DNA of 64,000 bases from positions 1,240,001 to 1,304,000 of the forward strand of contig NZ_JAEMNW010000002.1 in NCBI RefSeq assembly GCF_016481275.1. The letters are read 5' to 3'. Below, one piece after another: positions 13,453-31,420 of the stretch. Under the pieces are notes generated by a model. The model saw only the letters and a program-made list of their open reading frames with translations. It was not told where the DNA came from and did not search any database. Position numbers and translations under genes: made by a program. How positions within the stretch are numbered: position 1 is the stretch's first letter; each line of letters starts with the position of its first letter. This stretch comes from Antrihabitans auranticaus (GTDB taxonomy: Bacteria > Actinomycetota > Actinomycetes > Mycobacteriales > Mycobacteriaceae).

Positions 13453-14091
13453 TCAATCGAACGAAGCAACGACCGGCGCGATCGACGGCAGTCCCGCAAC
13501 GAGCACCATCGTCGCCTTCGCCTCAGCGGTGACCAGGGCGCCGTGCCGGATCTCCGCCGACGCGAACACTTTTCGACCGTCGACCGAATCGACTCGCGCC
13601 GTCACGTCGAGCGGTACGTGCAACGGGGTGCCCTTGCGATAGTCGACGGTCAGCGACGCCGTGACCGCAGCCGCGATGGTCCACGCCACGTTGCGACCGA
13701 GCGCGTGGTCGAGCACCGCCGCCACCAGCCCGCCGTGGACGCGGCCCGGCGGCCCCTCGTGAGCCGTGGGAAACACCACCCGCGCGTGGGTGACGCCGTC
13801 GATGTACCTCAAGTCGGTCAGCGGTGGCGCCACGGGGTTGCACGGACCCTCCACGGCATTGTTGATACTGACTCCGCCATCACCACGCGCCACCACGAGC
13901 GTGGAGTCCCGGGTGCGGGTGCGCAACAGCGCGGCTGCCTGATCGATCAGCAACGTCGCGGCCCCGAGTTCGGCACTGCTCGCCTGACTGTGCAGGCACG
14001 CGTCGATCAGTTCCCGGATTCGATCCGCCAGAAGTCTCGCATCCTCCGGCACCGTTGCAATCTCGCGAAACGCTGGCGCACCGTTTGTCAT
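13453..14091 (-). CDS. PaaI/4HBT hotdog-fold thioesterase
   Basis: A 212-aa protein whose C-terminal part is a hotdog-fold acyl-CoA thioesterase. The signature GPPGRVHGGLVAAVLDHALG is followed by the strand ASLTVDYRKGTPL. The N-terminal 80 residues are helical extension of the kind seen in actinobacterial PaaI-like proteins. It is the last gene of the six-gene minus operon and overlaps the hydrolase gene by ATGA. Probable role: hydrolysis of an acyl-CoA made by the upstream acyl-CoA synthetases, balancing acyl pools. It converges on tetR with a 26-bp gap. Confidence 0.85.
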   Translation of the reverse strand: MTNGAPAFREIATVPEDARLLADRIRELIDACLHSQASSAELGAATLLIDQAAALLRTRTRDSTLVVARGDGGVSINNAVEGPCNPVAPPLTDLRYIDGVTHARVVFPTAHEGPPGRVHGGLVAAVLDHALGRNVAWTIAAAVTASLTVDYRKGTPLHVPLDVTARVDSVDGRKVFASAEIRHGALVTAEAKATMVLVAGLPSIAPVVASFD

Positions 14092-15212: not shown

Positions 15213-16584
15213 ACGTGTGCCCCCGAACCGCGCTCATGAGTTCGCCGACGGCCGACCCGAGGCGAGCAACGAAACGGGCTGGGTCGGGCATCGACTCGGG
15301 TGTGGCGACGAGGCCGATCGACAGCCTGCCGTCGTAACTGTAGGCAGTCAGATTCACGTCCGCGGGCGCAATCGCCACTGCGAACGAAATCCATTCCACG
15401 ACAGCCACATCGCCGAGCCAGCGTCGATGGTCGGGTCCCGCGACGTTGGCGGTGGTGATGTTGTTGACGATGCGCGGCATTCGGTCAGCGAGAATCGGCC
15501 GCAGGTTCGCCGCAGCGCGGGCAGTGTAGGTCGACAGCCTTTCGGTGCAGTCGAAGCCGAGGCGGCGACGAAACTCGACGGCAGACGAGCAGCTGAGCGC
15601 GGTTGCGAGCAGGCGTTGGCGCGGGTCCGCAGTCTGGGTGTGCAGGTACACGCTGCACGCTGCCACGGCGTTGCCCCAGCGCCGCTTCGACTTCGGGTCC
15701 GCGGAAACACCGAAGGTTGCGACCACTGGCGCAGTCACCGGTTCACCCCTGGTGAGCAGCTCCTCACGCATCGCCCCGGCGACGACTGCGTGCAACACAC
15801 CGTTCAGCGTCGTCCCGCCGGCGCGTGCGATGTGCCGAAGATCGGCCAGGTCGATGGCGTAGCTCGCGCAGACCCGCTCGGCGCCACTGGGCGTGTTGAA
15901 GCTGGTGCGCGCGGCGTTCAGCCGCGGCGGTAGCGCCGACCGCTGCTCGAACGCGCGAGCACGCCCCCGGCTCCGGACAAGTTCGCGACACAGCGCGGCG
16001 GTGCCCCGCAGCATTCGTCCGCTGTCACGAAGAGCTTCCCGTCGCAGTTCGCGAGGATCGGTTGCAATCGGGTCGGCACGCCTGCACCCGTGCGCGACAG
16101 AACCCGGCGTTCCGGACGTCGTCGCAAGGAAGGTATTCAGCGCCGCGAGCCCGTCACAGACGGCGTGGTGCACGCGGACCACGATCGCTTGTTGCCCACC
16201 GGCCAAACCGTGCACGAGAGTCATCGCCCACAGGGGCCGCGACCGGTCGAGCTGAGCTTCTGCAAGGCGGGCGAACGCTGCGTCGAGGGATGTCCGGCTC
16301 GTGTCCGGAATCCTCGATTCATCGAGATGGCAGTCGATATCGAACTCTTCGTCGTCCACCCAGAACGGCCGGCCGCCGAACCCCGGCACCGAAACGACGC
16401 GCTGGGTTGCACGCGGCACCAACCCGAGATACTCCGGGACGACGCGCCGCAGATCGTCGAGCGTGAGGGGCCGACCACGGGCCGCCGTATCGAGGACCGC
16501 AACCTTGAGCGTGTGCATCGGAGTATCGGGGCGCTCCATGTGCCACAGCAGGGACTCCTGGCCCGAGAATCGTTCCACTGTCAT
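15205..16584 (-). CDS. Wax ester synthase/acyl-CoA:diacylglycerol acyltransferase (WS/DGAT)
   Basis: A 459-aa WS/DGAT. The catalytic HHxxxDG motif is HHAVCDG at residues 139-145. The C-terminal domain has the conserved NNITTANVAGPDH and the later LTAYSYDGRLSIGLVATPE segments. The enzyme transfers an acyl group from acyl-CoA to a fatty alcohol or diacylglycerol, usually at the inner membrane or lipid-droplet surface. It overlaps the acyl-CoA synthetase gene by ATGA and so is co-translated with its likely substrate supplier. Length is typical of actinobacterial homologues. Confidence 0.93.
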   Translation of the reverse strand: MTVERFSGQESLLWHMERPDTPMHTLKVAVLDTAARGRPLTLDDLRRVVPEYLGLVPRATQRVVSVPGFGGRPFWVDDEEFDIDCHLDESRIPDTSRTSLDAAFARLAEAQLDRSRPLWAMTLVHGLAGGQQAIVVRVHHAVCDGLAALNTFLATTSGTPGSVAHGCRRADPIATDPRELRREALRDSGRMLRGTAALCRELVRSRGRARAFEQRSALPPRLNAARTSFNTPSGAERVCASYAIDLADLRHIARAGGTTLNGVLHAVVAGAMREELLTRGEPVTAPVVATFGVSADPKSKRRWGNAVAACSVYLHTQTADPRQRLLATALSCSSAVEFRRRLGFDCTERLSTYTARAAANLRPILADRMPRIVNNITTANVAGPDHRRWLGDVAVVEWISFAVAIAPADVNLTAYSYDGRLSIGLVATPESMPDPARFVARLGSAVGELMSAVRGHTYA

Positions 16585-18161
16585 ACCGGCCTGACGTCGT
16601 ACGATGTCCCGCGACCTGCGCGCATCCAGATCGTGTCGGAAGTATTTGTGCCTTCGTCGATCAGGACACGCTTCAAGATCTTGTTCGTCGCGGTCGCGGG
16701 AAGCGTGTCGACGATACGAACGAAACGCGGCCAGGCCTTCGGCGAAAGGTCCTGCTGCACCCGGAGAAAGCGTTCGAACTCCGCAGGTGAGAGTCCGCTC
16801 TCCTGCCCGAGCACGACGGCAGCCATCAGCTGGTCACCCACGTTCGGATCGGGAATCCCGTACACGGCAACCTGATTGACCGCCGGATGGCGTAACACGA
16901 TGCGTTCGATCGGCACCGCTGCCAGGTTCTCGCCGTCGACTCGCAACCAGACCCCCGACCGACCGGCAAGATATACGAAGCCGTTCTCGTCGCGGTAACC
17001 GAGATCGCCGGACCAGTAGATTCCACCGCTGAGCCGCTGTTCGGTCGCTTCGGGGTCGTTGTAGTAGCCACGGAAGTCCCCCGCACCGTGCAGGTTCACC
17101 AACTCACCGACCGCCTCTGCAAGGTTGACGACCCGGCCCGCCGCGTCGAAGCGGGCTGTCGGGCACTCGGTGTTCGTATCGCGATCGAACACGGCCACTT
17201 CCGGGGGCGGCTGACCGATCGATCCGGGCGGAGTGCCTGGCACCCGCCGAATCACGATCGCCATTTCGGTCGAACCGAAACCGTCGCGAACTTCGCAGCC
17301 GAACCGCTCACGGAACTCGACGACATCCCGTTCGGACGCCTCGTTGCCGAACGCATACCGCAAGGGGTTGTCGGCGTCGTCGGGCATCCGCGGGGTCGCA
17401 AGAATGTAGGCAAGGGGTTTGCCCACATAGTTCATATAGGTCGCGCCGTACCGGCGAATGTCTCGCAGGAAGGAACTCGCGCTGAACCGCCGGGCCAGCG
17501 CCATCGTCGCGCCGCTGGACAGTGCGACAGCAAAACCGCTCATCACCGCATTGGAGTGGAACAAGGGCATCGAGACGTAGCACACGTCGTCCGACGTAAG
17601 CGAAAATCGTTGTGCCAGTGACTCCCCCGCCGCGACAACGGTCGCGTCCGTGACCATGACGGCTTTGGGGCTGCCGCTGGTGCCGGAAGTGAAGATGAGC
17701 ATGAAGACGTCCGTCGCTTCCGGTGCGACCAACGGCGCAGCCTCGCGCCGGCGCTCCACCTCCGCCTGCCATGAGTCACTGTCCGTGTTGATGACACGAA
17801 TGCCGTCGAGCTCCAGATTCTTCAGCAGCCCACTGCATTTCGCGTCGGTGAGGACTACTTGGCAGTCTGCCTTGCGAATATCGGCGGACAGCGCCGTGCC
17901 GCGTCGGGTCGTATTGATACCGACGGTGACGTAGCCGCCGAGCGCGCCCGCGGCAAGGCCCAGCACCATTTCCGGTGTGTTCTCGAGCAGCAGTCCCACG
18001 TGCCGCGGTGCCTGCGGGTCCAGCATGTTCCGTAGTGCGTGTGCGCGAGCCGTGCTCGCCGCGACGTACTCGCGCCACGACCACGTCCGGTCCTCGAACG
18101 CCAAGGCGGTCGAGTCCTGCTCGCTGCGCGAAAGTAGCAGCTGCGCAACAGTCAGCGGCAT
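16581..18161 (-). CDS. Acyl-CoA synthetase, FadD17-like
   Basis: A 526-aa ANL-superfamily ligase. The phosphate-binding loop is FTSGTSGSPKAVMV. The A5-like DGFGSTEMAIVIRR, the hinge region YWSGDLGYRDENGFVYLAGRSGVWLRVDGENLA and a C-terminal Lys (TATNKILKR) are all present. Overall pattern (NTTRRGTALSADIRKADCQVVLT, RYGATYMNYVGKPLAYILATP) matches mycobacterial FadD17-type enzymes, which are linked to sterol side-chain metabolism. It overlaps the upstream FadD gene by 10 nt. It should activate a carboxylic acid via acyl-AMP to acyl-CoA. Confidence 0.9.
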   Translation of the reverse strand: MPLTVAQLLLSRSEQDSTALAFEDRTWSWREYVAASTARAHALRNMLDPQAPRHVGLLLENTPEMVLGLAAGALGGYVTVGINTTRRGTALSADIRKADCQVVLTDAKCSGLLKNLELDGIRVINTDSDSWQAEVERRREAAPLVAPEATDVFMLIFTSGTSGSPKAVMVTDATVVAAGESLAQRFSLTSDDVCYVSMPLFHSNAVMSGFAVALSSGATMALARRFSASSFLRDIRRYGATYMNYVGKPLAYILATPRMPDDADNPLRYAFGNEASERDVVEFRERFGCEVRDGFGSTEMAIVIRRVPGTPPGSIGQPPPEVAVFDRDTNTECPTARFDAAGRVVNLAEAVGELVNLHGAGDFRGYYNDPEATEQRLSGGIYWSGDLGYRDENGFVYLAGRSGVWLRVDGENLAAVPIERIVLRHPAVNQVAVYGIPDPNVGDQLMAAVVLGQESGLSPAEFERFLRVQQDLSPKAWPRFVRIVDTLPATATNKILKRVLIDEGTNTSDTIWMRAGRGTSYDVRPV

Positions 18162-19810
18162 CGGTCCCCCAACTGCCGTTTGACGATCTTGCCCGACGCA
18201 TTGCGCGGGAGCTCGTCCAAGAACGCAAATTCACGCGGAACCTTGTAGCCTGCGAGCTCGGTTTTGACGTGCACCGCAAGGGCGTCGGCCGTCGCTTCGG
18301 CACCGGGCGCCAAGACGACATACGCGGCAAGTCGCTGACCGAACCGGCTGTCGCTCACACCGACCACCGCGGCCTCCTGCACAGCCGGGTGGGCGTGCAG
18401 AGCCTCTTCGACCTCGAGCGGATAGATGTTCTCGCCGCCCGACACGATCATCTCGTCGTCCCGGCCGACGACGTACAGGCGACCGGCGTCGTCGAACCGG
18501 CCGATATCGCCCGAGATCATGTATTCGCCGTGAAACGCCCGCGACTCCCCCGACGTGTATCCCTCGAACTGAGACTTGCTCGCAACAGCGATCTTTCCGA
18601 CCTTGCCGCGCGCCACCGGACGGTATTCGTCGTCGAGAATCCGTACGTCGGTACCTGTGAGCGGACGCCCCGCCGTATCGGGAGCAAGGCGCAGGTCGGC
18701 GGGAGTGGCGGTAGCGATCAGGCCCGCCTCGGTCGCGTTGTAGTTGTTGTAGACGATATCGCCGTAGCGATTCATGAAGGCCGTTACTGCGTCCGAGCGC
18801 ATTCGCGATCCGCTCGCAGTGACGAAGCGAAGCGTCCGCAGGGTGTACCTGTCGAGAGTTTCGGTCGGCAGACTCATGATCCGCTCGAGCATCACCGGTA
18901 CCAGCGCCAGTCCGCGGGCTCGATAGTCATCGACCATGGCCAGCGTCGCTTCGGGGTCGAATCTGCGCCGCAGCACGACAGTGCAGCCCAGTGTGGCCGA
19001 GATCGCCAGCTGGCCGAATCCCCACGCATGAAACAAAGGAGCTGCCACTACGGTCGGTTCTTCGGCTCGCCACGGAATGCGCTCGAACATGGCGGCCAGC
19101 GCACCCGCACCACCGCTACCGGATCGCCGGGCACCCTTGGGGCTACCGGTCGTACCCGACGTGAGGAGGGTGACCCGGCCGGTTCTACGAGGTTTGTGCG
19201 GTCGCGCGCCGATGTTCAGGTCGATCAAGCGGTCGACGGTGCGCGGGGTGCGGGCGTTGTCGGTCCAACCTGTCACGAGAACCAGGTCGTCGATTCGCGC
19301 CCGTGCATGCTCGACGAGGTCCGCGAACTCGTCGTCGAAAATCAATATCTCTGCGCGCTCGCGGGAAAGGACGTCGGTGAGCTGGGCAGCTCCGAATCCC
19401 GTATTCAGAAGCAGTGCGTCCGCGCCGAGCCGAGTCGACGCCCCCAGTGCCTCGACAAGGCCGCGGTGGTTGCGACACAGGATGCCGACGGTGCGCGGGA
19501 CACCGATACCCAGGCGCGACAGACCGACTGCCAACGCGTCACTACGTTGCGCCAGGGCAAGCCAAGTGAGGCTGCCGCGTTCGTCGATCAAGGCCGTGCC
19601 GCCGGGATTGCGCGCGGCCGACAGGCTGATCCCGGCCAACGGAGTGACGCCGTCCCGGCGGATCGCCGCGATCATGCGTACGTATTTGTCGGGCCGCAGG
19701 GGTGCGAGCATCCCGCTGCGAGCGAGGACGCGAACCGTCCAGACGAGCCGGCCGAGCCGACTGAACATCTCTTTCACAGGGCTTCCTCGGAAGGTCGGGA
19801 GGATGGGCAT
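18152..19810 (-). CDS. Long-chain acyl-CoA synthetase, FadD2/FadD12-like
   Basis: A 552-aa acyl-CoA ligase. The ATG at 19808-19810 (MPILPTFRG) is preferred, lying 4 nt after the acyltransferase stop; an upstream in-frame extension would sit inside that gene. Motifs are LLTSGTTGSPKGARR (P-loop), YNNYNATEAGLIATA (A5), MISGDIGRFDDAGRLYVVGRDDEMIVSGGENIYPLEVE (A7/A8 hinge) and the C-terminal catalytic Lys in RNASGKIVKRQL. This is a complete adenylating enzyme. Context with a PlsC-like acyltransferase, a second FadD and WS/DGAT indicates acyl-CoA supply for lipid assembly. Confidence 0.92.
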   Translation of the reverse strand: MPILPTFRGSPVKEMFSRLGRLVWTVRVLARSGMLAPLRPDKYVRMIAAIRRDGVTPLAGISLSAARNPGGTALIDERGSLTWLALAQRSDALAVGLSRLGIGVPRTVGILCRNHRGLVEALGASTRLGADALLLNTGFGAAQLTDVLSRERAEILIFDDEFADLVEHARARIDDLVLVTGWTDNARTPRTVDRLIDLNIGARPHKPRRTGRVTLLTSGTTGSPKGARRSGSGGAGALAAMFERIPWRAEEPTVVAAPLFHAWGFGQLAISATLGCTVVLRRRFDPEATLAMVDDYRARGLALVPVMLERIMSLPTETLDRYTLRTLRFVTASGSRMRSDAVTAFMNRYGDIVYNNYNATEAGLIATATPADLRLAPDTAGRPLTGTDVRILDDEYRPVARGKVGKIAVASKSQFEGYTSGESRAFHGEYMISGDIGRFDDAGRLYVVGRDDEMIVSGGENIYPLEVEEALHAHPAVQEAAVVGVSDSRFGQRLAAYVVLAPGAEATADALAVHVKTELAGYKVPREFAFLDELPRNASGKIVKRQLGDRCR

Positions 19811-19814
19811 CGGG

Positions 19815-20612
19815 TCAGCCGAGCACGGGAAACCGTCGTTCCCGCGCCATCTGGTCGAGGCTCTGCTGCATTCGCGACCGCACAACACGGTCGACCTCTG
19901 CAATGTCGGGGTCCGCACCGAACTCCGCCCGAATGTCGATGGGCGCCAATACCTTTGTTCGAATCTTCGCCGGGAGAGGCAGGTTCGGTGGGATTCCCAG
20001 CGAAAAGCCGAAAGGAAAGCCGAACGATAGCGGCGCCAGCTTCGAGCGCATCCGTTCGTTCAAGTTCAAGAACTTTGCGAGCGCCTCGCCTCGGCTCAGG
20101 AACAATTGGGCTTCCTGACCGCCGCTGCTGACGACCGGCACAATCGGCACCCCGGACTCGATCGCGGTGCGAACGTAACCGGTCCGGCCGGCGAAATCGA
20201 TGCGGTTCGCATCCGCCGTCGGGCGGAATGCGTCGTAGTCACCACCGGGGAAGACGATCGTCGCCGCTCCCGACCGCAAAATGTGCTCGGCATTGTCTCG
20301 ATTGGCGGGCACGAATCCGGCACGCGACATCAGTTGTTTCGCGATGCCGGTGAAGAGGAGATCGTGCGACAAGACGTAGAGGGGGCGGGCGGTCCCGAAC
20401 TGATCGAAGAACGCGAGCGCGATCACCGGTACGTCCATGGCGAACAGTCCGCCCGAGTGGTTGGACACCAGAAGCGCGCCACCGTCCGGCACATTCGCCA
20501 TCCCCGAAACCTCGGACCTGAACCAGCCTTTGACCGCCACACGCAATATCGGCAGCAAGCGGGCGACATAGGCCTCGCTGCGAACGTCGAGGTCGGCAAT
20601 CTGCACGGACAT
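19815..20612 (-). CDS. PlsC-like lysophospholipid acyltransferase-family protein
   Basis: A 265-aa acyltransferase and first gene of the six-gene minus operon. The acceptor-binding motif is LLVSNHSGGLFAMD near residues 49-60, a spaced variant of NHX4D seen in actinobacterial members. The second block VFPGGDYDAFRPTADANRIDFAGRTGYVRTAIE and the PIVPVVSSGGQE block are both intact. It has no clear signal or multiple membrane spans and is probably peripheral at the inner leaflet. It should transfer an acyl chain from acyl-CoA to a glycerophospholipid or similar hydroxyl acceptor. A perfect KstR-type palindrome lies 34 bp upstream. Confidence 0.88.
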   Translation of the reverse strand: MSVQIADLDVRSEAYVARLLPILRVAVKGWFRSEVSGMANVPDGGALLVSNHSGGLFAMDVPVIALAFFDQFGTARPLYVLSHDLLFTGIAKQLMSRAGFVPANRDNAEHILRSGAATIVFPGGDYDAFRPTADANRIDFAGRTGYVRTAIESGVPIVPVVSSGGQEAQLFLSRGEALAKFLNLNERMRSKLAPLSFGFPFGFSLGIPPNLPLPAKIRTKVLAPIDIRAEFGADPDIAEVDRVVRSRMQQSLDQMARERRFPVLG

Positions 20613-20645: not shown

Positions 20646-20659
20646 TAGAACACGTTCTA
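20646..20659. promoter_or_regulatory. Perfect KstR-type palindrome in the acyltransferase/FAAL divergent promoter
   Basis: TAGAACACGTTCTA is a full match to TNNAACNNGTTNNA with symmetric TAGAAC/GTTCTA arms. It lies 34 bp upstream of the acyltransferase start and about 210 bp upstream of the FAAL start. This is the best KstR-like box in the window. Confidence 0.72.
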
Positions 20660-20867: not shown

Positions 20868-22619
20868 GTGTCTACCGATTTCGTTTCCCATATCCGCGCT
20901 CAGGTCGCAGCGCACGGTGACAACCGCTCCTACACCTACAACCGGCAGGTCGGCCGCGAGCTCGTCGAAGAGACCTACACCTACCGCGACCTGGACCGTG
21001 GCGCCCGAGCGATGGCAGCGTGGCTCACGACCCAGCCGGGAGCGGGGCACCCCGTGATGCTCCTGCACGTCGATGGAATCGATTTCCTCCAAGCATTCTT
21101 CGGCTGCCTGTACGCCGGCGTCGTAGCGATTCCCGCTCCGGTCCCCCATGACGCACGCAGTATGCAGCGCGTGGGCACCATGTTCGCCGACGCCGACGTC
21201 CGCCTGGTGCTCACCACTGCCGAGGTGGCAGGTCCACTCAGCGCCTGGGCGACCGCGTCCGGCCTCGAGGTCGACATCATCGCCACCGACACGATCGAAT
21301 TGGGCTACCCGGACACCTGGACCATGCCGGCTATCGACCAGACCTCACTTGCCTTTCTGCAATACACCTCGGGTTCGACCAGCGAGCCCAAGGGCGTCAT
21401 GGTGACGCACGGAAATCTGCTCCACAACTGCGAGACGATGCGCGCCGTCAGTGGCGCCGACGAATCTCTCATCGGCGTCGGCTGGTTGCCGCACTTCCAT
21501 GACATGGGCCTCATCGGGATGCTCCTGGTCCCGCTCTACACGGGCGGCAACTTGCACTTCATGTCGCCGATGGCCTTTCTCAAACGTCCGGTTCGCTGGT
21601 TGCAGCTCATCTCCCGCCACCGCGCGAACATGACCATTGCGCCGAACTTCGCCTACGACCTCGTCGCGCGGCGCATCCCTGACGAACAACTCGACGGCCT
21701 GGACCTCTCGTCGCTGCACGTCGCGCTCACCGGCGCCGAGCCGATCCGCCCGCGCACACTCGAGGCGACGATCGACAAACTCGGACCGCACGGCTTCCGC
21801 GCCGACGCCTTCTTCACCGCGTACGGAATGGCCGAAATGACCCTGCTCGCGACGGCGAGCACGCCCGGCACAGCGCCCGTTTACCTCGAGGTCGACCCAG
21901 CTGCACTGGAGCGCAACGAGCTCGTGCCGTCGAATGGCGGACTACGACTCGTGAGCAGCGGCAAAGCAGCCGGCTGCGAAATAGCGATGGTCGACCCGAA
22001 CACCGGACGGGCGGTGCAGGACGGCCGGGTCGGCGAAATCTGGATTCGCGGTGGCAGCGTCACCGCCGGTTATTGGAACCGCCCCGAAGAAACTGTGGAG
22101 AAGTTCCAAGCGACGCTCGATGGCGAAGGCACCTTTCTTCGCACCGGCGACCTCGGCGTTCGCCACGACGGCGAAATCTACATAACCGGCCGATTGAAGG
22201 ATTTGCTCATCGTCAACGGCCGCAACCTTTATCCGCAAGACATCGAAGAATCCGTGCGCGAACTGCATCCGGCGCTCAACGGTGCCGCCGGTGTCGTGCT
22301 CACGGTCGACACCGGTCAGCACGAACGATTGCTCGTGATCCACGAGGTGAAAACGGCGCTCGTCGATATGGCCTACCCCGACCTCGCCCGGCAGATCAAG
22401 CATGCGGTAGCGCGCGCCTTCGACGTGCAGGCACCGAGCGTCGTCCTCGTCGACAAGCACGGCGTGCACCGCACCACCAGTGGCAAAGTCCAGCGCCGGT
22501 CCATGCACGCGTCGTTCCTCGCGGACCGCGTCGACGCCGTATTGCACGAAGAAATCGATCCCGTGGTCGCTCGAATGCGCGGCACCGTCCGCGGCGACAA
22601 CCTCACGACCGCCGCCTGA
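20868..22619 (+). CDS. Fatty acyl-AMP ligase (FAAL)
   Basis: A 583-aa FAAL that activates a fatty acid as acyl-AMP and hands it to a carrier protein instead of CoA. I chose the GTG at 20868 (MSTDFVSHIRAQ) because AAGGAGA lies 8 bp upstream and the length then fits FAALs; upstream codons are leader. Family marks are the P-loop YTSGSTSEPKGVMVTHGN (166-183), GWLPHFHDMGLIGMLLVPLYTGG, FFTAYGMAEMTL and RTGDLGVRHDGEIYITGRLKDLLIVNGRNLYPQDIE. The next genes encode an ACP and a PKS, the usual FAAL partners. Confidence 0.93.
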   Translation: MSTDFVSHIRAQVAAHGDNRSYTYNRQVGRELVEETYTYRDLDRGARAMAAWLTTQPGAGHPVMLLHVDGIDFLQAFFGCLYAGVVAIPAPVPHDARSMQRVGTMFADADVRLVLTTAEVAGPLSAWATASGLEVDIIATDTIELGYPDTWTMPAIDQTSLAFLQYTSGSTSEPKGVMVTHGNLLHNCETMRAVSGADESLIGVGWLPHFHDMGLIGMLLVPLYTGGNLHFMSPMAFLKRPVRWLQLISRHRANMTIAPNFAYDLVARRIPDEQLDGLDLSSLHVALTGAEPIRPRTLEATIDKLGPHGFRADAFFTAYGMAEMTLLATASTPGTAPVYLEVDPAALERNELVPSNGGLRLVSSGKAAGCEIAMVDPNTGRAVQDGRVGEIWIRGGSVTAGYWNRPEETVEKFQATLDGEGTFLRTGDLGVRHDGEIYITGRLKDLLIVNGRNLYPQDIEESVRELHPALNGAAGVVLTVDTGQHERLLVIHEVKTALVDMAYPDLARQIKHAVARAFDVQAPSVVLVDKHGVHRTTSGKVQRRSMHASFLADRVDAVLHEEIDPVVARMRGTVRGDNLTTAA

Positions 22620-22650
22620 TCGACCACTTACTTTCTGCAGGGAGAAATCG

Positions 22651-22923
22651 ATGAATTCCAACGTGCGCGAAATTGCCCCGATTATCGACTGGCTGATCGG
22701 AAGAGTGGCATTCTATATCGAGCAGCCAGTGCGAAATGTCAGCCCGGATATCGCACTGGCCGAGCTCGGAATCGAATCGGTGTCTGCGGTGAGCCTATGC
22801 GGTGAGATCGAAGACAAGTGGGAACTCGAACTCGACCCCACTGTTGTTTTCGACTATCCGACGATCGCGGCCATGGCGTCCTTTATCGCGGAAGAAACAG
22901 TACTCTCGTACCAGAAGGTGTGA
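22651..22923 (+). CDS. Acyl carrier protein
   Basis: A 90-aa free-standing ACP. The phosphopantetheine site is Ser43 in ELGIESVSAVSLC. The helical frame (IIDWLIGRVAFYIE and FDYPTIAAMASFIAEE) is complete. The ATG at 22651 follows GGGAG. The stop overlaps the PKS start (TGATG), so ACP and synthase are translationally coupled. The inferred role is to receive the acyl chain from the FAAL and present it to the KS. No phosphopantetheinyl transferase is encoded in the window, so activation must come from elsewhere. Confidence 0.92.
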   Translation: MNSNVREIAPIIDWLIGRVAFYIEQPVRNVSPDIALAELGIESVSAVSLCGEIEDKWELELDPTVVFDYPTIAAMASFIAEETVLSYQKV

Positions 22924-25900
22924 TGAGCGACATCGCCATCGTCGGCCTCGATTGCCGATTCCCACAGGCACCGGATGCGCGCACACTGTGGGAACTCCTG
23001 ATGGCGAGCGGTGACGGAATCGCCGATGTGCCAAGCGAGCGCTGGCACGCTGATCGCTTCTACGACGCCGACGGCGGCCCGGGAACGGTCAACAACAGAA
23101 CCGGAGGCTTCATCGCCGACGCCGACGCCTTCGACTACGAGTTCTTCGGCATTGCCCCACGGGAGGCCGAGGCGCTGGACCCGCAGCAGCGCTTACTGCT
23201 GCAGGCAGCGTGGCGCGCATTCGAGGACGCAACACTTGATCCGAAAGCGCAAGCAGGGTCGAACACCGGTGTATTCGTCGGCGTGATGGCCAACGAGTGG
23301 AGCTCGCAAATGAGCGACCTCACCGCCATCACGCCGCAACTCGGAAGCGGCAACGGCTACTTCATGACCGCGAACCGCGTCTCCTACACGCTGGACCTGA
23401 AGGGACCGAGTCTCGCGATCGACACGGCATGCTCGTCGTCCCTGGTGGCCTTACACATGGCGTGCTCGGCTCTGCGGACCGCCGAGTGCGATCAAGCGCT
23501 GGCCGGCGGGGTCAACATCGCCATCACACCGACCCTCAACGTCTTCTACACCCAGGCCGGGCTGTCTGCTCCCGACGGACGTTGTAAACCGTTCAGCAGC
23601 AAGGCGAACGGGATCGGACGCGGCGAGGGCGTCGCCATGCTGGTGCTGCGCAGGCTCGACGACGCGCTGGCAGCGGGTCTCCCGATCTATGCGGTGATCA
23701 AGGCAAGCGCCGTCAACAACGACGGCCGCAGCAACGGGATCACCGCACCCAGCCGCTGGGCCCAGCAACAGGTCGTCGGCGATACCTACCGGCGCGCCGG
23801 TGTGACCGCCGATCGGGTGTCGTTCGTCGAAGCGCACGGTACGGGGACCGTGCTCGGCGACATGATCGAGGTGAAGGCGCTCGGCCATCATCACGCGGTC
23901 ACCCGGTCGCAGCCCTGCGCGATCGGTTCCATCAAAGGAAATCTCGGTCATACCGAAGGTGCAGCAGGCGTTGCCGGCGTGATCAAAGCCGCACTCGCAC
24001 TTTACAATCGCGTGGTTCCGCCGAGCCGATTCGCGAGCGACGAAAATCCGCGACTCAAACTTGCAGGCAACGGACTCAGGCTGCTCGACGAGCCCCTGCC
24101 ACTACCCGACGGCGAAGTGTTCGGAGCCGTCAGCAGCTTCGGTCTCGGTGGAACGAACGCACACATGCTGCTCGGCAGCCCGCCGCCGACCGTTCCAGCG
24201 CCCGCGAGTCTCGGTCGCGGCGTGCTGACGTTGTCGTCCAACAATCGGGAAGGGCTGCACCGCAACGCGATACGCCTCGCACAGGACATCGAACGAAACC
24301 CCGCCATCGACATCGGACAGCTGTGCTGGTCGACGAACTCAGTGAAAGCGGCGGGGCGCCAACGGCTTGCTTTCCCGGTCGCCGACCGGAATCAGGCTCT
24401 CACCGCGCTGCGCGACCCCGTACTGCTCGACACATCGACAGGGGTCTCACAGGGTCTGAGTATCGGCTGGCTCTGCACTGGCCAAGGCTCTCAGTACCCC
24501 GGCATGGCCCAGAAACTGCACAACCGGCACAGCATCTTCCGGCACGCCCTTGCAGCGGTCGACGACTGTTTGGCGGCCTACATCGGCGGGTCGATCGCCG
24601 CCGTGAGTTTCGATTCCGGCTCTGAGGTCGATCGCACGGAGTGGGCGCAACCCGGCATTTTTGCCGTCGAATATGCACTTGCGCAGACACTTTCCACGCT
24701 GGGGATCGCGCCGTCCTGGCTTCTCGGGCACAGCGTCGGCGAATACGCCGCGGCGACGCATGCGGGAGTCCTGAGCCTCGACGACGCGTGCCGACTGATC
24801 GCGGCTCGTGGCCGCCTCATGCAGAGCCTCCCAGAGGCAGGGGCCATGCTCGCGGTCCGCGCCGGCTCCGCAGAGATCGAGGGCATGATCGCGTCCGAAC
24901 CGCAGGTCGCCCTTGCAGCCGTGAACGGTCCGCGCGATGTCGTCCTGTCAGGCGCCGCAGGCGCGCTCGCACGGTTCGGCACAGCGCTCGCGGCGGCGGG
25001 ATTCACGACACGGCCACTGACCGTCTCGCATGCGTTCCACTCCCCTCTCATGGATCCGATGCTGCCCGAGTTTGCGGACGTCGCGGCGAGCTGCACTTAT
25101 CAACTCCCCCGCGTTCCGATCTATTCGACACTGCGCGGCCGCCTACTCGGTCCTGACGAGACGATGGACGCCACTTACTGGACCGAGCACATCCGGGAAC
25201 CTGTTCGTTTCGCCGACGCCGCGACGGCCGCTCTGGTCACCGAGCCGACCCATCTCTTGGAGGTCGGACCCAGACGAATCCTGACGCCCCTCGTGGCCCG
25301 GCTGCAGCCCGACCTTGCCGCCGCCCGCCTCGCGCCCTGCCCGGGGCCCGGCGCCACCGGCGACGAACTCGCCGCCACGGTTTCGGTGCTCTACCGAGAC
25401 GGCCTGAATCCCACGTGGGATGGCCTGTACGAGCCCGAATCCCGAGTGTGCCTACGCCTGAGCGGATACGAATTCGCCACCACGAATCGCTTCTGGATGA
25501 AGCCGAGCCCACCAGCGCCGAGCGCCGTCGCACAACCGAGCCCGAGCTCACCCGACCGCACACCATCCGATGGCAAGGCATCCGAACAGGAAGAAACCAC
25601 GATGGACCAGCTCATTGCGCTCTTCCGCGAACAGGCCGCCGTCCTCGCCGCCGTCGCGCAAAGCGGCAGTCCGGCAACGCTTTCCCTACCACCGCGAGCC
25701 ACCGTGCCCGACGACGCGATCGCGGCGTCGGTGCGGGCGGCCGCCGCGCGGGTCAGCGGGTTTCCGGCCGCGGCGCTGAACACCGGCAAACCGGTCATGG
25801 ACGAACTCGGCTTCGATTCGATCATGGTCGCCGACCTCCTCGGTGGGCTACGCCGGACCTACCCGGCACTGGTCATCGACCCGAGTTGGTTCACGCCCAC

Positions 25901-27212
25901 ACGCACGCTCGACGATGTGACCGCCTATGTATCGCAACAACTTCAGCCCGGACAGCCGATTTCCGTGTCCACCGAAGTGCCGCCCGCGCCGGAACGAAAG
26001 GTCGCCCCAGAAACGTCGATCGCCGAGTTCGGCGAGGTCAAGGCGCTGGCCGAAAGACTGCAACTCGGCGAGGCGCTGGGTGTCACGAATCCGTACTTCC
26101 TGATCAACGACGGCGTCACCCGCGACACGTCGATCGTCGACGGTTCGGAGGTCGTCAACTTCTCCAGCTACAACTACATCGGCATGTCCGGTCACCCAGC
26201 CGTGGTGGAGGCGGTCCAAGACGCCGTCGCGCGCTACGGCAGCTCCGTTTCGGCGAGCCGGCTCCTGTCCGGCGAGAAGCCCGTCCACCGTGAACTCGAG
26301 AAGGCGCTCGCCGGCCTCCTAGGCACGGAGGATGCGATCGCGCTCGTGAGCGGACACGCCACGAACGTCACGGTGATCGGGCACATTGTCGGACCGGACG
26401 ACCTCGTCATCCACGACGCACTAGCCCACGACAGCATCCTGCAAGGCTGCAAACTGTCGGGCGCGACGCGGCGACCTTTCCCGCACAACGACATCGACGC
26501 ACTCGATGCAATGCTGACAGCGATTCGACCGCACTATCGACGTGTGCTGATCCTCATCGAGGGGATCTACAGCCAAGACGGCGACATCCCGGACCTGCCT
26601 GCGTTCATCGCGGTGAAGAAGAAGCACGGCGCGCTGCTGATGATCGACGAAGCGCACAGCATCGGGGTGCTCGGGCCCACGGGCGGCGGAATCGGCGAGC
26701 ACTTCGACGTCGACCGCTCCGACGTCGAACTGTGGTCCGGAACGATGTCGAAAGCACTGGCGGGCTGCGGAGGCTACGTCGGTGGCAGCACCGAGATGGT
26801 TCGATTCCTGAAGTACACGACACCGGGCTTCGTGTACAGCGTCGGAATGACGCCGATGAACGCCGCAGCATCACTCGCGGCCATCGAGCAACTCCGCGCC
26901 GATCCCGACGTGCTGACTGTGCTGCGGCGCAATTCCACACTGTTCTTGCGACTGGCCAAGGACGCCGGCTTGAACACCGGCGACACGTTGGACACGCCGG
27001 TCATCCCGTGCATTGTCGGCGACTCGCTGAAAACGTTGCGCCTCTCGAATCGCCTGTTGCAGCGTGGAATCAACGTGAACCCGATTCTCTATCCGGCGGT
27101 ACCGGAGGATCTGGCCAGACTGCGCTTCTTCGTGACGTCCTGCCACACCGAGGATCAGATCAGGTACAGCGTAAAAGCGCTGGTCGAGGAGCTGGAAGCG
27201 CTGACAGAGTGA
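22923..27212 (+). CDS. PKS-AOS megasynthase: KS-AT-ACP-alpha-oxoamine synthase
   Basis: A 1429-aa hybrid. The KS (1-420) has Cys170 (DTACSSSL), His304 (VEAHGTGT) and His343 (KGNLGHTEG). The AT (about 515-800) has Ser604 (GHSVGEYAA) and HAFH at 703-706, the malonyl-specific signature. The ACP (about 930-1005) carries Ser966 (LGFDSI). The C-terminal alpha-oxoamine synthase (about 1035-1429) is a fold-I PLP domain with Asp1242/His1245 (MIDEAHSIGV) and Schiff-base Lys1277 (GTMSKALAGCGGY). There is no KR, DH, ER or thioesterase. Predicted chemistry: acyl chain from the FAAL/ACP, one malonyl extension, then decarboxylative condensation with an amino acid that releases a 2-amino-3,5-diketone. Start overlaps the ACP stop. 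Confidence 0.92.
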   Translation: MSDIAIVGLDCRFPQAPDARTLWELLMASGDGIADVPSERWHADRFYDADGGPGTVNNRTGGFIADADAFDYEFFGIAPREAEALDPQQRLLLQAAWRAFEDATLDPKAQAGSNTGVFVGVMANEWSSQMSDLTAITPQLGSGNGYFMTANRVSYTLDLKGPSLAIDTACSSSLVALHMACSALRTAECDQALAGGVNIAITPTLNVFYTQAGLSAPDGRCKPFSSKANGIGRGEGVAMLVLRRLDDALAAGLPIYAVIKASAVNNDGRSNGITAPSRWAQQQVVGDTYRRAGVTADRVSFVEAHGTGTVLGDMIEVKALGHHHAVTRSQPCAIGSIKGNLGHTEGAAGVAGVIKAALALYNRVVPPSRFASDENPRLKLAGNGLRLLDEPLPLPDGEVFGAVSSFGLGGTNAHMLLGSPPPTVPAPASLGRGVLTLSSNNREGLHRNAIRLAQDIERNPAIDIGQLCWSTNSVKAAGRQRLAFPVADRNQALTALRDPVLLDTSTGVSQGLSIGWLCTGQGSQYPGMAQKLHNRHSIFRHALAAVDDCLAAYIGGSIAAVSFDSGSEVDRTEWAQPGIFAVEYALAQTLSTLGIAPSWLLGHSVGEYAAATHAGVLSLDDACRLIAARGRLMQSLPEAGAMLAVRAGSAEIEGMIASEPQVALAAVNGPRDVVLSGAAGALARFGTALAAAGFTTRPLTVSHAFHSPLMDPMLPEFADVAASCTYQLPRVPIYSTLRGRLLGPDETMDATYWTEHIREPVRFADAATAALVTEPTHLLEVGPRRILTPLVARLQPDLAAARLAPCPGPGATGDELAATVSVLYRDGLNPTWDGLYEPESRVCLRLSGYEFATTNRFWMKPSPPAPSAVAQPSPSSPDRTPSDGKASEQEETTMDQLIALFREQAAVLAAVAQSGSPATLSLPPRATVPDDAIAASVRAAAARVSGFPAAALNTGKPVMDELGFDSIMVADLLGGLRRTYPALVIDPSWFTPTRTLDDVTAYVSQQLQPGQPISVSTEVPPAPERKVAPETSIAEFGEVKALAERLQLGEALGVTNPYFLINDGVTRDTSIVDGSEVVNFSSYNYIGMSGHPAVVEAVQDAVARYGSSVSASRLLSGEKPVHRELEKALAGLLGTEDAIALVSGHATNVTVIGHIVGPDDLVIHDALAHDSILQGCKLSGATRRPFPHNDIDALDAMLTAIRPHYRRVLILIEGIYSQDGDIPDLPAFIAVKKKHGALLMIDEAHSIGVLGPTGGGIGEHFDVDRSDVELWSGTMSKALAGCGGYVGGSTEMVRFLKYTTPGFVYSVGMTPMNAAASLAAIEQLRADPDVLTVLRRNSTLFLRLAKDAGLNTGDTLDTPVIPCIVGDSLKTLRLSNRLLQRGINVNPILYPAVPEDLARLRFFVTSCHTEDQIRYSVKALVEELEALTE

Positions 27213-27288: not shown

Positions 27289-28398
27289 ATGGCGAGTGTT
27301 CTTGTTGTCGGAGCGAGCATCGCGGGGCCTGCGCTGGCCTTCTGGCTGCAGCGGGCAGGGTTCGACACAACGGTGGTCGAACGGGCACCTGCCCTGCGCC
27401 CGGGTGGGCAAGCGGTCGACTTGCGCGGGGTCGCAAGGCAAGTGGCTGTGCTGATGGGTCTGGACGACGAGATCCGCGCAGCGCGGACGGCGACGGCCGG
27501 GTTCTCTGTCGTCGACCGGGACGGCATCGTGCTGTCGTCGATGCGACCGGAAGACTTCGCCGGCGACGGTCAGATCGCCGAGATCGAGATCCTGCGCGGC
27601 GATCTGTCGCGACTGCTCTACGAGGCGACGAGCGACAGCATCGAGTACATCTTCGGCGAACGAATCACCGTGGTCGACGAGCAGGCCGACGGCGTGACCG
27701 TCGAGTTTGCGAACGGGTCCAACCGGCAGTTCGACGTCGTCATCGGTGCCGACGGCCTGCACTCCGCGGTCCGCGCGGCGATCTTCGGCGACGAGTCGAA
27801 GTTCTTGCACGACATGGGCACCTGCATCGGATTGTGGTCGGTGCCCAACCATCTCGGCCTCGAAAACTGGGCATTGGCCTACAACGAATCGGGTTGCTCG
27901 GCAGGCATCCGGCCTGTCCACCAGAATCGCGAAGCCATCGTCTACGTGAGTTTCCCGTCCGATGAAATTCGTTTCGACTATCGCGACGTTGCCGCACAGA
28001 AGCAACTCGTACGGCAGCGAACAGCCGGAATGGGCTGGGAAGTGCCGCTATTGGTGGCGCAAATCGACGAGGCGCCGGACTTCTACTTCGATACCTGCAG
28101 TCAGGTGTTGCTGGATTCGTGGAGTCGCGGGCGGATCGGGCTGGTCGGTGACGCTGCGTTCTGCCCCTCCCCGCTTACCGGGCAGGGCACAAGCCTGGCG
28201 TTCGTCGCCGCGTACGTTCTCGCGGGTGAACTCGCATCTGCCGGAGGCGATTACAGCGCGGGACTCGCCGCGTACGAGCGTCGAATGCGCGAGTGGGTTC
28301 TCGATACCCAACTCATGGGGCGCGAAGGCAACGCCGACTCCCGACTCGGGGCTGTCGCCAATGCCTTCGCACTACCCCACTACAGCAGTATGTTCTGA
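27289..28398 (+). CDS. FAD-dependent monooxygenase (group A)
   Basis: A 369-aa single-component flavin hydroxylase. The N-terminal FAD motif is VLVVGASIAGPALAFWLQRAGFDTTVVERAP. The central DGLHSAVR and the second FAD motif GLVGDAAFCPSPLTGQGTSLAF are both intact. Sequence style resembles TetX/PHBH-like enzymes acting on diffusible substrates. It lies 76 bp after the megasynthase, with a weak Shine-Dalgarno, so it may be in the same or a separate transcript. It could tailor the aminoketone product or an unrelated aromatic; this is not decidable here. Confidence 0.87.
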   Translation: MASVLVVGASIAGPALAFWLQRAGFDTTVVERAPALRPGGQAVDLRGVARQVAVLMGLDDEIRAARTATAGFSVVDRDGIVLSSMRPEDFAGDGQIAEIEILRGDLSRLLYEATSDSIEYIFGERITVVDEQADGVTVEFANGSNRQFDVVIGADGLHSAVRAAIFGDESKFLHDMGTCIGLWSVPNHLGLENWALAYNESGCSAGIRPVHQNREAIVYVSFPSDEIRFDYRDVAAQKQLVRQRTAGMGWEVPLLVAQIDEAPDFYFDTCSQVLLDSWSRGRIGLVGDAAFCPSPLTGQGTSLAFVAAYVLAGELASAGGDYSAGLAAYERRMREWVLDTQLMGREGNADSRLGAVANAFALPHYSSMF

Positions 28399-28400
28399 CG

Positions 28401-29708
28401 GTGACGAAACGAGCGGATTCCGCACTGCGTGGCCGCATTCCACGCTGGACCCTTGCCGGCGACGGCCGGTCGATCGCCCCCGGAGCAGTGGTCGCTCCGC
28501 ACGAGCGGCTCAGCTGGCCACGCACCGTCGGCATCGGCATGCAACACGTGATCGCGATGTTCGGCGCGACACTGCTGGTGCCGACCATCACCGGCTTTCC
28601 GGTGACCACCACACTGCTGTTCTCCGGCATCGGGACGATCCTCTTCCTCGTCCTCACCAAAGGCCGGATTCCGAGCTACCTCGGCTCCTCGTTCGCGTTC
28701 ATCGCACCGTTGACCGCTTCGGCTTCCGATGGACCTGCCGCCCAACTCGGCGCGGTCCTGGCGGTGGGCGTCGTCCTGACCGCAGTCGGTGCGGTCGTGC
28801 ACACCGTCGGCGCCAAGGCACTCGACGTGGTGATGCCGCCTGTGGTCACCGGCGCGATCGTCGCCCTGATCGGCCTCAACCTCGCACCGGCCGCTACCGG
28901 ATCGTTCGAGATGCAGCCGCTCATCGCCGTCGTGACGCTGGCCGTAATCCTCCTCGTCACCGTCGTCGGACCAGGCCTGCTCGGCAGGCTGAGCATTCTT
29001 GTCGGCTCTGTCGCCGGCTGGCTCTTTGCATGGGCGATCGGCGACCTCGCCGCCGAACGGGTCGACGCCCTGCGCGACGCCGCGTGGTTGGGTCTGCCGG
29101 AGTTCCGCGGTCCGACGTTCGACCTTTCGGTGATTCTGCTTGCGTTGCCAGTGGTCGTGGTCCTTGTCGCCGAAAACGTCGGCCACGTCAAGGCAGTTGC
29201 GACGATGACCGGCAAGTCGCTCGACGACCTCGCCGGAACCGCCCTGATCGCCGACGGGATCGCGACCACGTTCGCGGGTGCAGGCGGCGGCTCGGGCACC
29301 ACCACCTATGCCGAAAACATCGGTGTCATGGCGGCAACGAAGGTCTATTCGACCGCGGCCTACTGGGTCGCCGCGGCAACCGCGATCGTGCTGTCCTTCT
29401 CGCCCAAGTTCGGCGCGCTGGTGTTCACGATCCCGGACGGAGTCATCGGCGGCGCGACGCTGGTGCTGTACGGCCTGATCGGCCTTCTCGGCGTGCGCAT
29501 CTGGATGGAGGCGCGCGTAGATTTCAACGACCCGGTCAACCTGACGGTCGCAGCGGCCGCACTCGTCGCGGGTATCGGAAACCTCACGCTCACAATCGGA
29601 AGCGTGGAACTCGGCGGCATCGCGTGGGGCTCGATCGGCATACTCGTCGGGTATCCGATCGCGCGCGCCCTCGCCAACCGCCGGACGGTACGCGGACGGG
29701 CGCGATAG
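28401..29708 (+). CDS. NCS2-family nucleobase/xanthine-uracil permease
   Basis: A 435-aa polytopic membrane protein of the nucleobase-cation symporter 2 family. The GTG at 28401 begins 2 nt after the monooxygenase stop. Signature segments are TVGIGMQHVIAMFGATLLVP, SYLGSSFAFIAPL, VVTGAIVALIGLNLAP, a conserved AENVGHVKAV and the GGGSGTTTYAENIGVMAATKVYS loop, in which Glu and Asn line the NCS2 substrate site. About 12-14 spans are expected. It imports uracil, xanthine or a similar heterocycle. The tight spacing to a flavin monooxygenase suggests they may act on the same heterocyclic compound. Confidence 0.9.
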   Translation: MTKRADSALRGRIPRWTLAGDGRSIAPGAVVAPHERLSWPRTVGIGMQHVIAMFGATLLVPTITGFPVTTTLLFSGIGTILFLVLTKGRIPSYLGSSFAFIAPLTASASDGPAAQLGAVLAVGVVLTAVGAVVHTVGAKALDVVMPPVVTGAIVALIGLNLAPAATGSFEMQPLIAVVTLAVILLVTVVGPGLLGRLSILVGSVAGWLFAWAIGDLAAERVDALRDAAWLGLPEFRGPTFDLSVILLALPVVVVLVAENVGHVKAVATMTGKSLDDLAGTALIADGIATTFAGAGGGSGTTTYAENIGVMAATKVYSTAAYWVAAATAIVLSFSPKFGALVFTIPDGVIGGATLVLYGLIGLLGVRIWMEARVDFNDPVNLTVAAAALVAGIGNLTLTIGSVELGGIAWGSIGILVGYPIARALANRRTVRGRAR

Positions 29709-31088
29709 GTGGCGGCGACGCAGGGCGAGCCGGCTCATCCCAAACTGATCGTCGCGGCGATCTCGACCGCTCTGTTCTGTGTCCAGCTCGACTACTTCGC
29801 AATGAATCTCGCCGTGCCGAGGATCGCCGAAGACCTCGACGCCTCCGCGCCCGACCTGCAGTGGGTCATCAGTGCCTACATGCTTGCCCTCGGCGCATTC
29901 ATGGTGCCGGGCGGCCGAATCGGCGACATGTACGGGCGGCGGCGCGCCCTGCTCGGGGGGATTGCACTGTTCGGGCTGTCGTCCGTCGGCTGCGCGCTTG
30001 CGCCGTCAGCCGAGATGCTGATCGGCGCGCGCGTGGTCCAAGGCATCGGCGCCGCGCTGATCTTCCCGGTTTCGGTGAGTGTGCTCACGAACGCATTTCC
30101 CGCGGTTCGCGCCGGCCGGGCCATCGGATTGTGTTATGGCATAGCCGGTCTCGGCAACGCAGCGGGACCGCTGGTCGGCGGTTTACTGACCGAGGAGCTC
30201 AGCTGGCGCGCGATCTTCTGGCTGAACGTCCCGCTCACTATCGCCGCCCTTGTGCTCGGTGTACTGACCATCACCGAATCGTCCGACGAGTCGGCGCCAC
30301 GGCGACTCGACATCGCGGGCTTGGCGCTCATCACGGTCGGAATCGGCGTCTTCACCCTCGCGTTCGACCGCGCGCCGACGTGGGGTTGGCTGTCCGCGGC
30401 GACAATTGGCGCCTTCGCGCTGGCGATCGCCGTCCTGGTGGGATTCGTTCTCGTAGAGACGCGGGTTCCTACGCCCCTGGTGGACCTCACCCTGTTGCGA
30501 CAATCGCGGTTCACAGTGCTCATGATCGCGGGAACGATCGCCAACATCGCATACGCTGTAACAATTTTCGGCTCCACGCTCTATTTGCAGCAGGGGCGCG
30601 GCCTCAGCCCGCTCGCAGCGGGCATCGTGTTCCTGGGCCCTTCGGCCGGCGCTGCCCTGGGCGGTCCGCTGTCGGGACGCCTTGCCGCGCGGCACAATCC
30701 GGTACAGGTCATGGGGATTGCTTGCATCTCGGCCGCTGTGGCACTCGGAGCGCTGACAACGGTTACGAGTTGGCCGCTGTATGTCCCGGTGCTCACCGCC
30801 TGCGGATTCACGATGGGCCTCGTCTACGCGTTCACCACTGTCGCAACCCAATCGGTCGTACGGCCCGAAAGAGCCGGCGAAGCTGCGGGCGTCACGCTGA
30901 CCTCGCTCGTCACCCTGGCAGGCGTGGGCGTCGCCGTCAGCGCTTCGGCCCTCGAGATGATGCAGGCACACGGCGCGTCTATCGCGGGAGCTCTCGACCG
31001 GGTATTTCTCGTACTCGCAGCCGGTCTTTTCGCCGCGGGCGCGGCAGTGCTCGCAACCCGGGGGCGGCGACAGCGAACCGGCCTATAG
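29709..31088 (+). CDS. MFS drug/metabolite exporter (DHA2, EmrB/QacA type)
   Basis: A 459-aa major facilitator transporter with about 14 hydrophobic spans. Motif A appears as GGRIGDMYGRRRALLGG, and the motif C-like region as GIGAALIFPVSVSVL and GIAGLGNAAGPLVGGLL. The first span contains LDYFAMNLAVPRIAEDL, typical of DHA2 (usually LDxTIVNVALP). The GTG start directly follows the permease stop. It may export the lipid aminoketone or confer solvent/drug tolerance; substrate is unknown. Its stop overlaps a possible start of the next gene. Confidence 0.9.
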   Translation: MAATQGEPAHPKLIVAAISTALFCVQLDYFAMNLAVPRIAEDLDASAPDLQWVISAYMLALGAFMVPGGRIGDMYGRRRALLGGIALFGLSSVGCALAPSAEMLIGARVVQGIGAALIFPVSVSVLTNAFPAVRAGRAIGLCYGIAGLGNAAGPLVGGLLTEELSWRAIFWLNVPLTIAALVLGVLTITESSDESAPRRLDIAGLALITVGIGVFTLAFDRAPTWGWLSAATIGAFALAIAVLVGFVLVETRVPTPLVDLTLLRQSRFTVLMIAGTIANIAYAVTIFGSTLYLQQGRGLSPLAAGIVFLGPSAGAALGGPLSGRLAARHNPVQVMGIACISAAVALGALTTVTSWPLYVPVLTACGFTMGLVYAFTTVATQSVVRPERAGEAAGVTLTSLVTLAGVGVAVSASALEMMQAHGASIAGALDRVFLVLAAGLFAAGAAVLATRGRRQRTGL

Positions 31089-31096
31089 TGAACCGC

Positions 31097-31420
31097 GTGA
31101 TATTCATCGTCGTGAAGTTCCCGGTCAAGACCGACTACGTCGACGAGTGGCTCAGCCGAGTCGACAGTTTCACGCAGGCAACCCGCAACGAGCCGGGCAA
31201 CCTGTGGTTCGAGTGGTCACGCAGTATCGACGACCCGACCACATTCGTGCTAGTCGAGGCTTTTCAAGACGACGCCGCGGCAGCACACGTCGGTTCGGAC
31301 CACTTCAAGAAGGCGTTGATCGACATGCGCCCCCTCATCCGCAGAACGCCGGACATCGTGAGCACCACGATCGAGGGCGCGACGGGATGGTCGAAAATGG
31401 GTGAACTTTCCCTCGACTGA
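31097..31420 (+). CDS. Antibiotic biosynthesis monooxygenase (ABM)-domain protein
   Basis: A 107-aa ferredoxin-like alpha/beta-barrel protein of the ABM family. The start is the GTG at 31097 (MIFIVVKFPVKTDYVDEWL), which opens directly on the first beta strand; a GTG at 31088 overlapping the MFS stop is an alternative. The family pattern ATRNEPGNLWFEWSRSIDDPTTFVLVEAFQDDAAAAHVGSDHFKKAL is clear. Members are cofactor-less quinone-forming monooxygenases or simple dimeric folds of unknown function. It is co-directional and tightly packed with the MFS gene. Confidence 0.8.
   Translation: MIFIVVKFPVKTDYVDEWLSRVDSFTQATRNEPGNLWFEWSRSIDDPTTFVLVEAFQDDAAAAHVGSDHFKKALIDMRPLIRRTPDIVSTTIEGATGWSKMGELSLD

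Follow-up and report, generated by a model that had tools for sequence, protein, structure and literature searches.

RedL of undecylprodiginine biosynthesis extends a dodecanoyl unit to a beta-ketomyristoyl thioester and carries out a pyridoxal phosphate (PLP)-dependent condensation with glycine; the product cyclises to 4-keto-2-undecylpyrroline, which is then reduced by RedK (PMC11188435, PMC12654105). 4-Keto-2-undecylpyrroline has also been reported from cultures of S. coelicolor (PMC6261592). The described tetronate pathways condense a beta-ketothioester bound to an acyl carrier protein (ACP) (PMC4979870). A third relevant system is SgaAB of Pseudomonas fluorescens—a polyketide synthase (PKS) plus an alpha-oxoamine synthase (AOS)—in which the AOS is a separate protein with serine palmitoyltransferase (SPT) activity and the products are C24–C28 sphinganines (PMC12134224). 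Here we describe a three-gene cassette from a 64,000-nucleotide stretch of the Antrihabitans auranticaus genome (the window; contig NZ_JAEMNW010000002.1, forward-strand positions 1,240,001 to 1,304,000). It encodes a fatty acyl-AMP ligase (FAAL), a free ACP and a synthase with ketosynthase (KS), acyltransferase (AT), ACP and AOS domains. It probably forms an assembly line that extends a fatty acid once with malonyl, leaves the new unit unreduced, releases the chain through the AOS and ends in closure to a pyrrol-3-one.

In the proposed line the FAAL would activate the fatty acid as an acyl-AMP and load it onto the free ACP. The KS would take the acyl unit and condense it once with malonyl on the internal ACP, producing a 3-oxoacyl-ACP; this should stay unreduced because the synthase has no reductive domain. 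The PLP-dependent AOS would then couple the chain to an amino acid (L-alanine being the likeliest) in a decarboxylative condensation that frees it from the ACP, and the resulting 2-amino-3,5-diketone would lose water to give a 5-alkyl-2-methyl-pyrrol-3-one (3-hydroxypyrrole tautomer). Gene order, domain content, conservation of catalytic residues, phylogeny and the pocket residue are read directly from sequence. Every catalytic step we infer from known families, and the choice of amino acid, the single extension, cyclisation as the end product and the chain length are put forward with less support.

Genes and conservation of the cassette

A sequence-only reading of the window had recognised the three genes and proposed this chemistry, and coordinates and domain searches confirm their placement (Table 1). 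The GTG start of the FAAL gene is preceded by a purine-rich, ribosome-binding-like stretch, AAAAAGGAGAGCTGACA, with GGAG. By its matches the ligase falls in the FAAL family rather than among acyl-CoA ligases: the best NCBIfam matches, all below curated cut-offs, are FAAL models apart from one multidomain synthase model, and the best match among solved structures is 7r7f ('Polyketide synthase', 6.9e-131), others being 3kxw, FadD23, FadD32 and FadD28. The free ACP gene shares 1 base with the synthase start. Pfam spans on the synthase are KS 2–472, AT 516–790, PP-binding 937–1003 and aminotransferase I/II 1076–1420. The Pfam search listed no ketoreductase, dehydratase, enoyl reductase or thioesterase domain in the synthase, in agreement with the earlier claim that it has neither a reductive domain nor a thioesterase. 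As judged from sequence, the catalytic residues are intact. Those named earlier for the AT (Ser604, HAFH), the internal ACP (Ser966) and the AOS (Lys1277) are as claimed; of the proposed KS triad Cys170 and His343 stand, while the residue given as His304 is His305. HAFH is a malonyl-type AT motif.

Table 1. Positions in the window of the cassette genes, the synthase domains and the adjoining monooxygenase-like gene
Feature	Position	Strand	Remarks
FAAL (fatty acyl-AMP ligase)	20868..22619	+	583 aa, GTG start, FAAL-model matches
Free acyl carrier protein	22651..22923	+	90 aa, PP-binding E 2.2e-11, motif LGIES
KS-AT-ACP-AOS synthase (P0001)	22923..27212	+	1429 aa
Ketosynthase domain	22923..24197 (aa 1-425)	+	Cys170/His305/His343
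Acyltransferase domain	24468..25292 (aa 516-790)	+	Ser604, HAFH at 703
Internal ACP	25731..25931 (aa 937-1003)	+	Ser966
C-terminal alpha-oxoamine synthase (AOS) domain	26010..27209 (aa 1030-1429)	+	PLP lysine Lys1277
Codon of Ser1112, equivalent of ThAOS Val79 (amino-acid selectivity residue)	26256..26258	+	from alignment
FAD-binding_3 monooxygenase-like gene	27289..28398	+	possible tailoring gene, not conserved

A scan of genome contigs with the synthase gave 51 loci. A full-length relative was present in 32 (28 Nocardia, 2 Antrihabitans and 2 Mycobacterium), and one further locus, from Aldersonia, is interrupted by a contig end. The set studied comprised 37 loci plus the window; four of the 37 came from genomes of the order, one of them duplicating a Nocardia locus; the repeat is L163, whose AOS is identical to that of L059. 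All but one of the 37 reach the AOS, L067 stopping at a contig end. The homologue search suggested by the sequence-only reading recovered the PKS at 37 other loci, and the label 'Rhodococcus-type' used there should be replaced by Antrihabitans/Nocardia-type. With the window's own genome included, the cassette occurs in three of four Antrihabitans genomes and in six of 397 from an even sample of the order (AOS identity 71% or more). Among Nocardia genomes it occurs in 44 of 150 (at least 75% identical), about three in ten.

Within this set, window included, a FAAL lies upstream of the PKS in 38/38 rows (53–100% identity), as does an ACP match at most 600 bases upstream. In 28 of the 38 the ACP stop overlaps the PKS start, by either 1 or 4 bases; the overlap was measured from the first residue of the query, and the PKS of the remaining ten may start elsewhere. 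Gene calls in the loci come from a simple GC-frame script, and the FAAL end in L043 and L165, which ran into the PKS start, is not reliable. The KS Cys/His/His and the AT serine are invariant in all 38 rows, and the ACP serine and the AOS His/Asp/Lys/Arg in all 37 rows long enough to include them, and 36 of the 38 ATs have HAFH. In three pairs dN was 0.19–0.25 against a dS of 0.97–1.39, the latter near saturation. These sequence comparisons confirm that conservation of the cassette is not due to chance, and by sequence the three genes travel as one unit, with differing flanks, in Antrihabitans, Nocardia, Aldersonia and two Mycobacterium.

Beyond the trio, no gene family was found in more than 10 loci beside the cassettes, and on this ground a larger cluster common to the loci was rejected. 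In 5 of the 37 loci the trio is followed by a RedJ-like type II thioesterase gene, with a Pfam Thioesterase match in L049. Plasmid-borne spread was rejected for the plasmid collection searched, in which none of 267 matching records (E 1e-100) covers 80% of the synthase, and the cassette does not stand out in GC content. The cassette AOS of Antrihabitans stalactiti (L040) groups with two Nocardia sequences (85/86) instead of joining the window and A. stalagmiti (L039), a placement that hints at transfer.

A literature search, which left subscription papers mostly uncovered, found no account of the cassette or its Nocardia product, or of an AOS with a FAAL. The available text of two Nocardia genome-mining papers (PMC4035055, PMC7413640) mentions single-module or mono-modular PKSs and does not name the cassette, and an orphan cluster in one of them may be the cassette. 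In a review of FAALs (PMC11837247), RedL, 'prodigi-' and 'tetronate' never occur.

Ancestry of the ketosynthase and the oxoamine synthase

Equivalence to RedL was the working hypothesis ahead of the phylogenetic analysis. Among the matches listed, 18 RedL-type proteins in Streptomyces-group genomes have AOS domains of 49–52% identity. Eight RedL-type loci were read, seven from the Streptomyces-group search and one, L169, from the search of the order; in all eight, a single protein carries FAAL, KS, AT and AOS, and a RedN-type AOS gene lies close by. RedL-type proteins and the cassette share the order acyl activation–ACP–KS–AT–ACP–AOS, and both would use one malonyl extension without reduction followed by AOS release. 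The RedL type is a single fused protein, whereas the cassette splits this order over three genes; between the two, AOS domains are 50–52% identical and KS domains 45–50% (42% for L169). The names RedK, RedJ and RedN are our presumptive ones for the Streptomyces genes, assigned from gene order. In L144 the RedL-type gene is followed by a short-chain dehydrogenase/reductase (SDR) gene, by Pfam, and then by genes which by eye resemble a thioesterase and a methyltransferase. The 2695-residue RedL-type protein at L142:7073-15160 runs past its AOS into a stretch that, again by eye, is like the L144 SDR (RedK-type).

The KS tree was reduced from 106 to 88 and then to 47 rows, without L169, a long-branch RedL-type sequence, and without L039_1_36, a different PKS in L039. 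In the careful 47-row tree the cassette groups (100/100) with the tetronate-type KSs of Streptomyces, Kitasatospora and Actinokineospora; a clade uniting cassette and RedL KSs is rejected (p-AU 6.18e-09, 47 of 88 rows). The KS trees cover eight of the nine tetronate-type loci, the PKS of L071 having been missed by the gene caller. These tetronate-type relatives match the cassette synthase over the KS-AT-ACP part alone, the match stopping before the AOS. The sets concerned (L068–L074, L076 and L077, and the plasmid locus L184; RK-682/agglomerin type) share with the cassette a free ACP and a KS-AT-ACP front end, as well as a FAAL, found in eight of the nine loci, with best local alignments 50–52% identical. 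They differ in carrying FabH-like, FkbH-like (by a weak Pfam match), second ACP, acyltransferase, hydrolase, phosphopantetheinyl transferase (PPTase) and acyl-CoA dehydrogenase genes in varied combinations. In L070, for example, FabH-like, ACP, acyltransferase, hydrolase, PPTase and acyl-CoA dehydrogenase genes lie beside KS-AT-ACP, together with an FkbH_N match that scores 19.7 bits (cut-off 27), and an annotated plasmid carries a comparable set of HAD-IIIC, FabH-like, ACP and PPTase. From this content we infer a tetronate product for these sets. Among the loci compared, the FkbH-like and FabH-like gene clusters (12 and 7; 38% identity over 60% length) occur only in L068–L077 and never beside cassettes. 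The closest relatives of the KS belong to tetronate-type sets, whose chemistry requires a beta-keto thioester; this supports an unreduced extension in the cassette.

The C-terminal domain is assigned to the alpha-oxoamine synthases by its PLP lysine, Asp, stacking His and carboxylate Arg and by its predicted fold. An AlphaFold2 model of the domain (mean pLDDT 90.8) matches serine palmitoyltransferase 3a2b best (Z 52.7, rmsd 1.7, 388 aligned); ThAOS and KBL lie within about 2 of this score, and the modelled fold does not separate the three families. In the careful AOS tree (49 of 94 rows, L169 and L172 left out) the cassette forms one clade (100/99), which joins two uncharacterised Streptomyces PKS-AOS families at 97/92 with RedL outside. 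The wider fork that contains RedL has just 81/62, with a long-branch warning among the outgroups, and the AU test covered the KS tree. Class 1 (KS-AT-ACP-AOS) and class 2 (KS-...-AOS) of these PKS-AOS families resemble the cassette in the AOS (55–65% identical) and differ in the KS (34–40% identical, in a distant clade). As the KS sides with the tetronate type and the AOS with another lineage, the line looks chimeric: a tetronate-type front, placed by the KS tree, joined to an AOS of different descent.

Class 1 proteins, mostly from Streptomyces, are found in L146–L154 and L161, and in L147 the gene adjoins an MMPL transporter gene. Class 2, also mostly from Streptomyces, is shorter and has no AT match (L155–L160, L166, L167, L175–L178); in L155 it adjoins an SDR-type gene. 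In the window's own family, L168:6188-12495 (G585) encodes a further KS-AT-AOS protein (AOS 56%), and a FAAL-like gene (32%) comes next.

The sequence-only reading knew of no described pathway of this form. RedL-type proteins carry the same domain order in one chain, and a categorically new system is ruled out by RedL, which performs the same kind of reaction; the chemistry proposed—a single malonyl extension left unreduced, release by the AOS and perhaps ring closure to a pyrrol-3-one—is supported and sound, and has a precedent because the RedL reaction is already described (PMC11188435, PMC12654105). What seems to be new is a separate, free-standing and seemingly chimeric cassette with a possible non-glycine amino acid. 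It would be a minimal natural case of release chemistry swapped on one front end, with glycerate condensation probably giving tetronates in Streptomyces and AOS release giving N-heterocycles in Nocardia.

Amino-acid choice and alternative products

In ThAOS, Val79 is a selectivity residue; at the equivalent position KBL has Val, AONS and SPT have Ser and ALAS has Thr, and of the two Ser enzymes AONS uses alanine and SPT serine (PMC11906848). The selector (Ser1112 in the window) is Ser in all 37 cassette AOSs; it is Thr in all eight RedL-type rows and Ser in all eight RedN-type rows. On this basis L-alanine is the most likely substrate, followed by L-serine and then glycine. The loop of Ser1112 is the least confident part of the AOS model (residues 82–86 under 50).

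Several observations weigh against the proposed line and its product. ThAOS V79S still used glycine well, while V79T used L-alanine alone, which makes the selector a weak guide (PMC11906848). A reductase acting in trans, or iteration, may alter the chain. Two of the 38 ATs lack HAFH, and the free ACP carries an ES motif in the window, L039 and L162 where most relatives have DS. Finally, the compared loci were labelled RedL or tetronate by their domain order and neighbouring genes rather than by comparison with a named reference.

The likeliest of the alternatives, though itself improbable, is that the cassette is a plain RedL equivalent, its AOS using glycine to give a 5-alkyl-pyrrol-3-one of the same kind as 4-keto-2-undecylpyrroline. 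The common domain order and unreduced extension are consistent with this, as is the tolerance of a Ser selector for glycine in ThAOS V79S. The RedL-type selector, however, is Thr, as in ALAS, where that of every cassette is Ser, and neither the KS nor the AOS of the cassette groups with the RedL type in the trees. Nor did a RedK-type query find a match at E 1e-25 in the window's genome (G000) or in G003, G759 and G009, while its own genome (G069), the positive control, was found; matches of 31–34% were obtained in G648 and G008, and at 1e-5 there was none in the 37 cassette loci or the window. By the KS and AOS trees the cassette does not appear to be a RedL orthologue, and the identity 'cassette = RedL' was rejected on both trees and the selector residue.

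It is also rather improbable that the cassette feeds a bigger pathway, for example one in which the adjacent FAD monooxygenase (FMO) oxidises the pyrrolinone, a course compatible with the preferred line up to release. The FMO gene starts 76 bases after the PKS stop on the same strand, but none of the 37 other cassette loci gave a match to it, which makes it at most a local addition, and no flanking family exceeds ten loci.

Least probable is a sphingoid-type line, cf. Pseudomonas SgaAB, in which FabG-like enzymes would reduce the 3-oxoacyl-ACP in trans and the AOS would use serine to form sphinganine-like bases: SPT ranks first among the fold matches (ThAOS and KBL being close behind), the selector is Ser as in SPT and PKS-derived sphinganines exist (PMC12134224), but the genes flanking the cassettes include no recurrent reductase family, the sister KSs seem to work in beta-keto chemistry, and the AOS lies in a PKS-embedded clade apart from the RedN-type, BioF-like and KBL-like rows, this last point being weak as the trees hold no SPT row.

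The three-gene line ending in AOS release and pyrrol-3-one closure remains the preferred explanation. For its cyclised product the calculated [M+H]+ is 252.2322, 280.2635 or 308.2948 if alanine is used with a C12, C14 or C16 starter; with a C12 starter, serine would give 268.2271 and glycine 238.2165. A broader proposal, which we advance tentatively and which may well prove wrong, is that RedL-like chemistry was assembled independently and that free 2-methyl- or 2-hydroxymethyl-5-alkyl-pyrrol-3-ones are end products across Nocardia and relatives. To our knowledge there is no isolated example of this class of pyrrol-3-one among actinobacterial lipids; if the proposal is true, such compounds are perhaps redox-active or signalling molecules. 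With about three in ten of the Nocardia genomes searched carrying the line, and the product narrowed to a short list of masses, the cassette is widespread, compact and directly testable, and offers a small system for how AOS domains select their amino acid.

Neighbouring genes and control elements

Divergent from the cassette, the minus strand at 13453-20612 carries an acyltransferase gene, FadD12-like and FadD1-like ligase genes and a wax ester synthase/DGAT gene; none of these lipid genes shared a cluster with the neighbours of other cassettes. Scans for promoters and terminators gave fewer hits than shuffled sequence did. A motif scan returned one TAGAACNNGTTCTA match against 0.05 expected by shuffling, although a separate palindrome test returned nothing. 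The match is an inverted repeat with a two-base centre, TAGAAC-AC-GTTCTA, at 20646-20659; it lies 208 bases ahead of the FAAL and just upstream of the acyltransferase gene on the minus strand (19815-20612), and we take it to resemble the KstR operator of steroid catabolism. Downstream of the cassette, an antibiotic biosynthesis monooxygenase (ABM) domain match lies at about 31100-31320, near the end of the frame 27962-31420.

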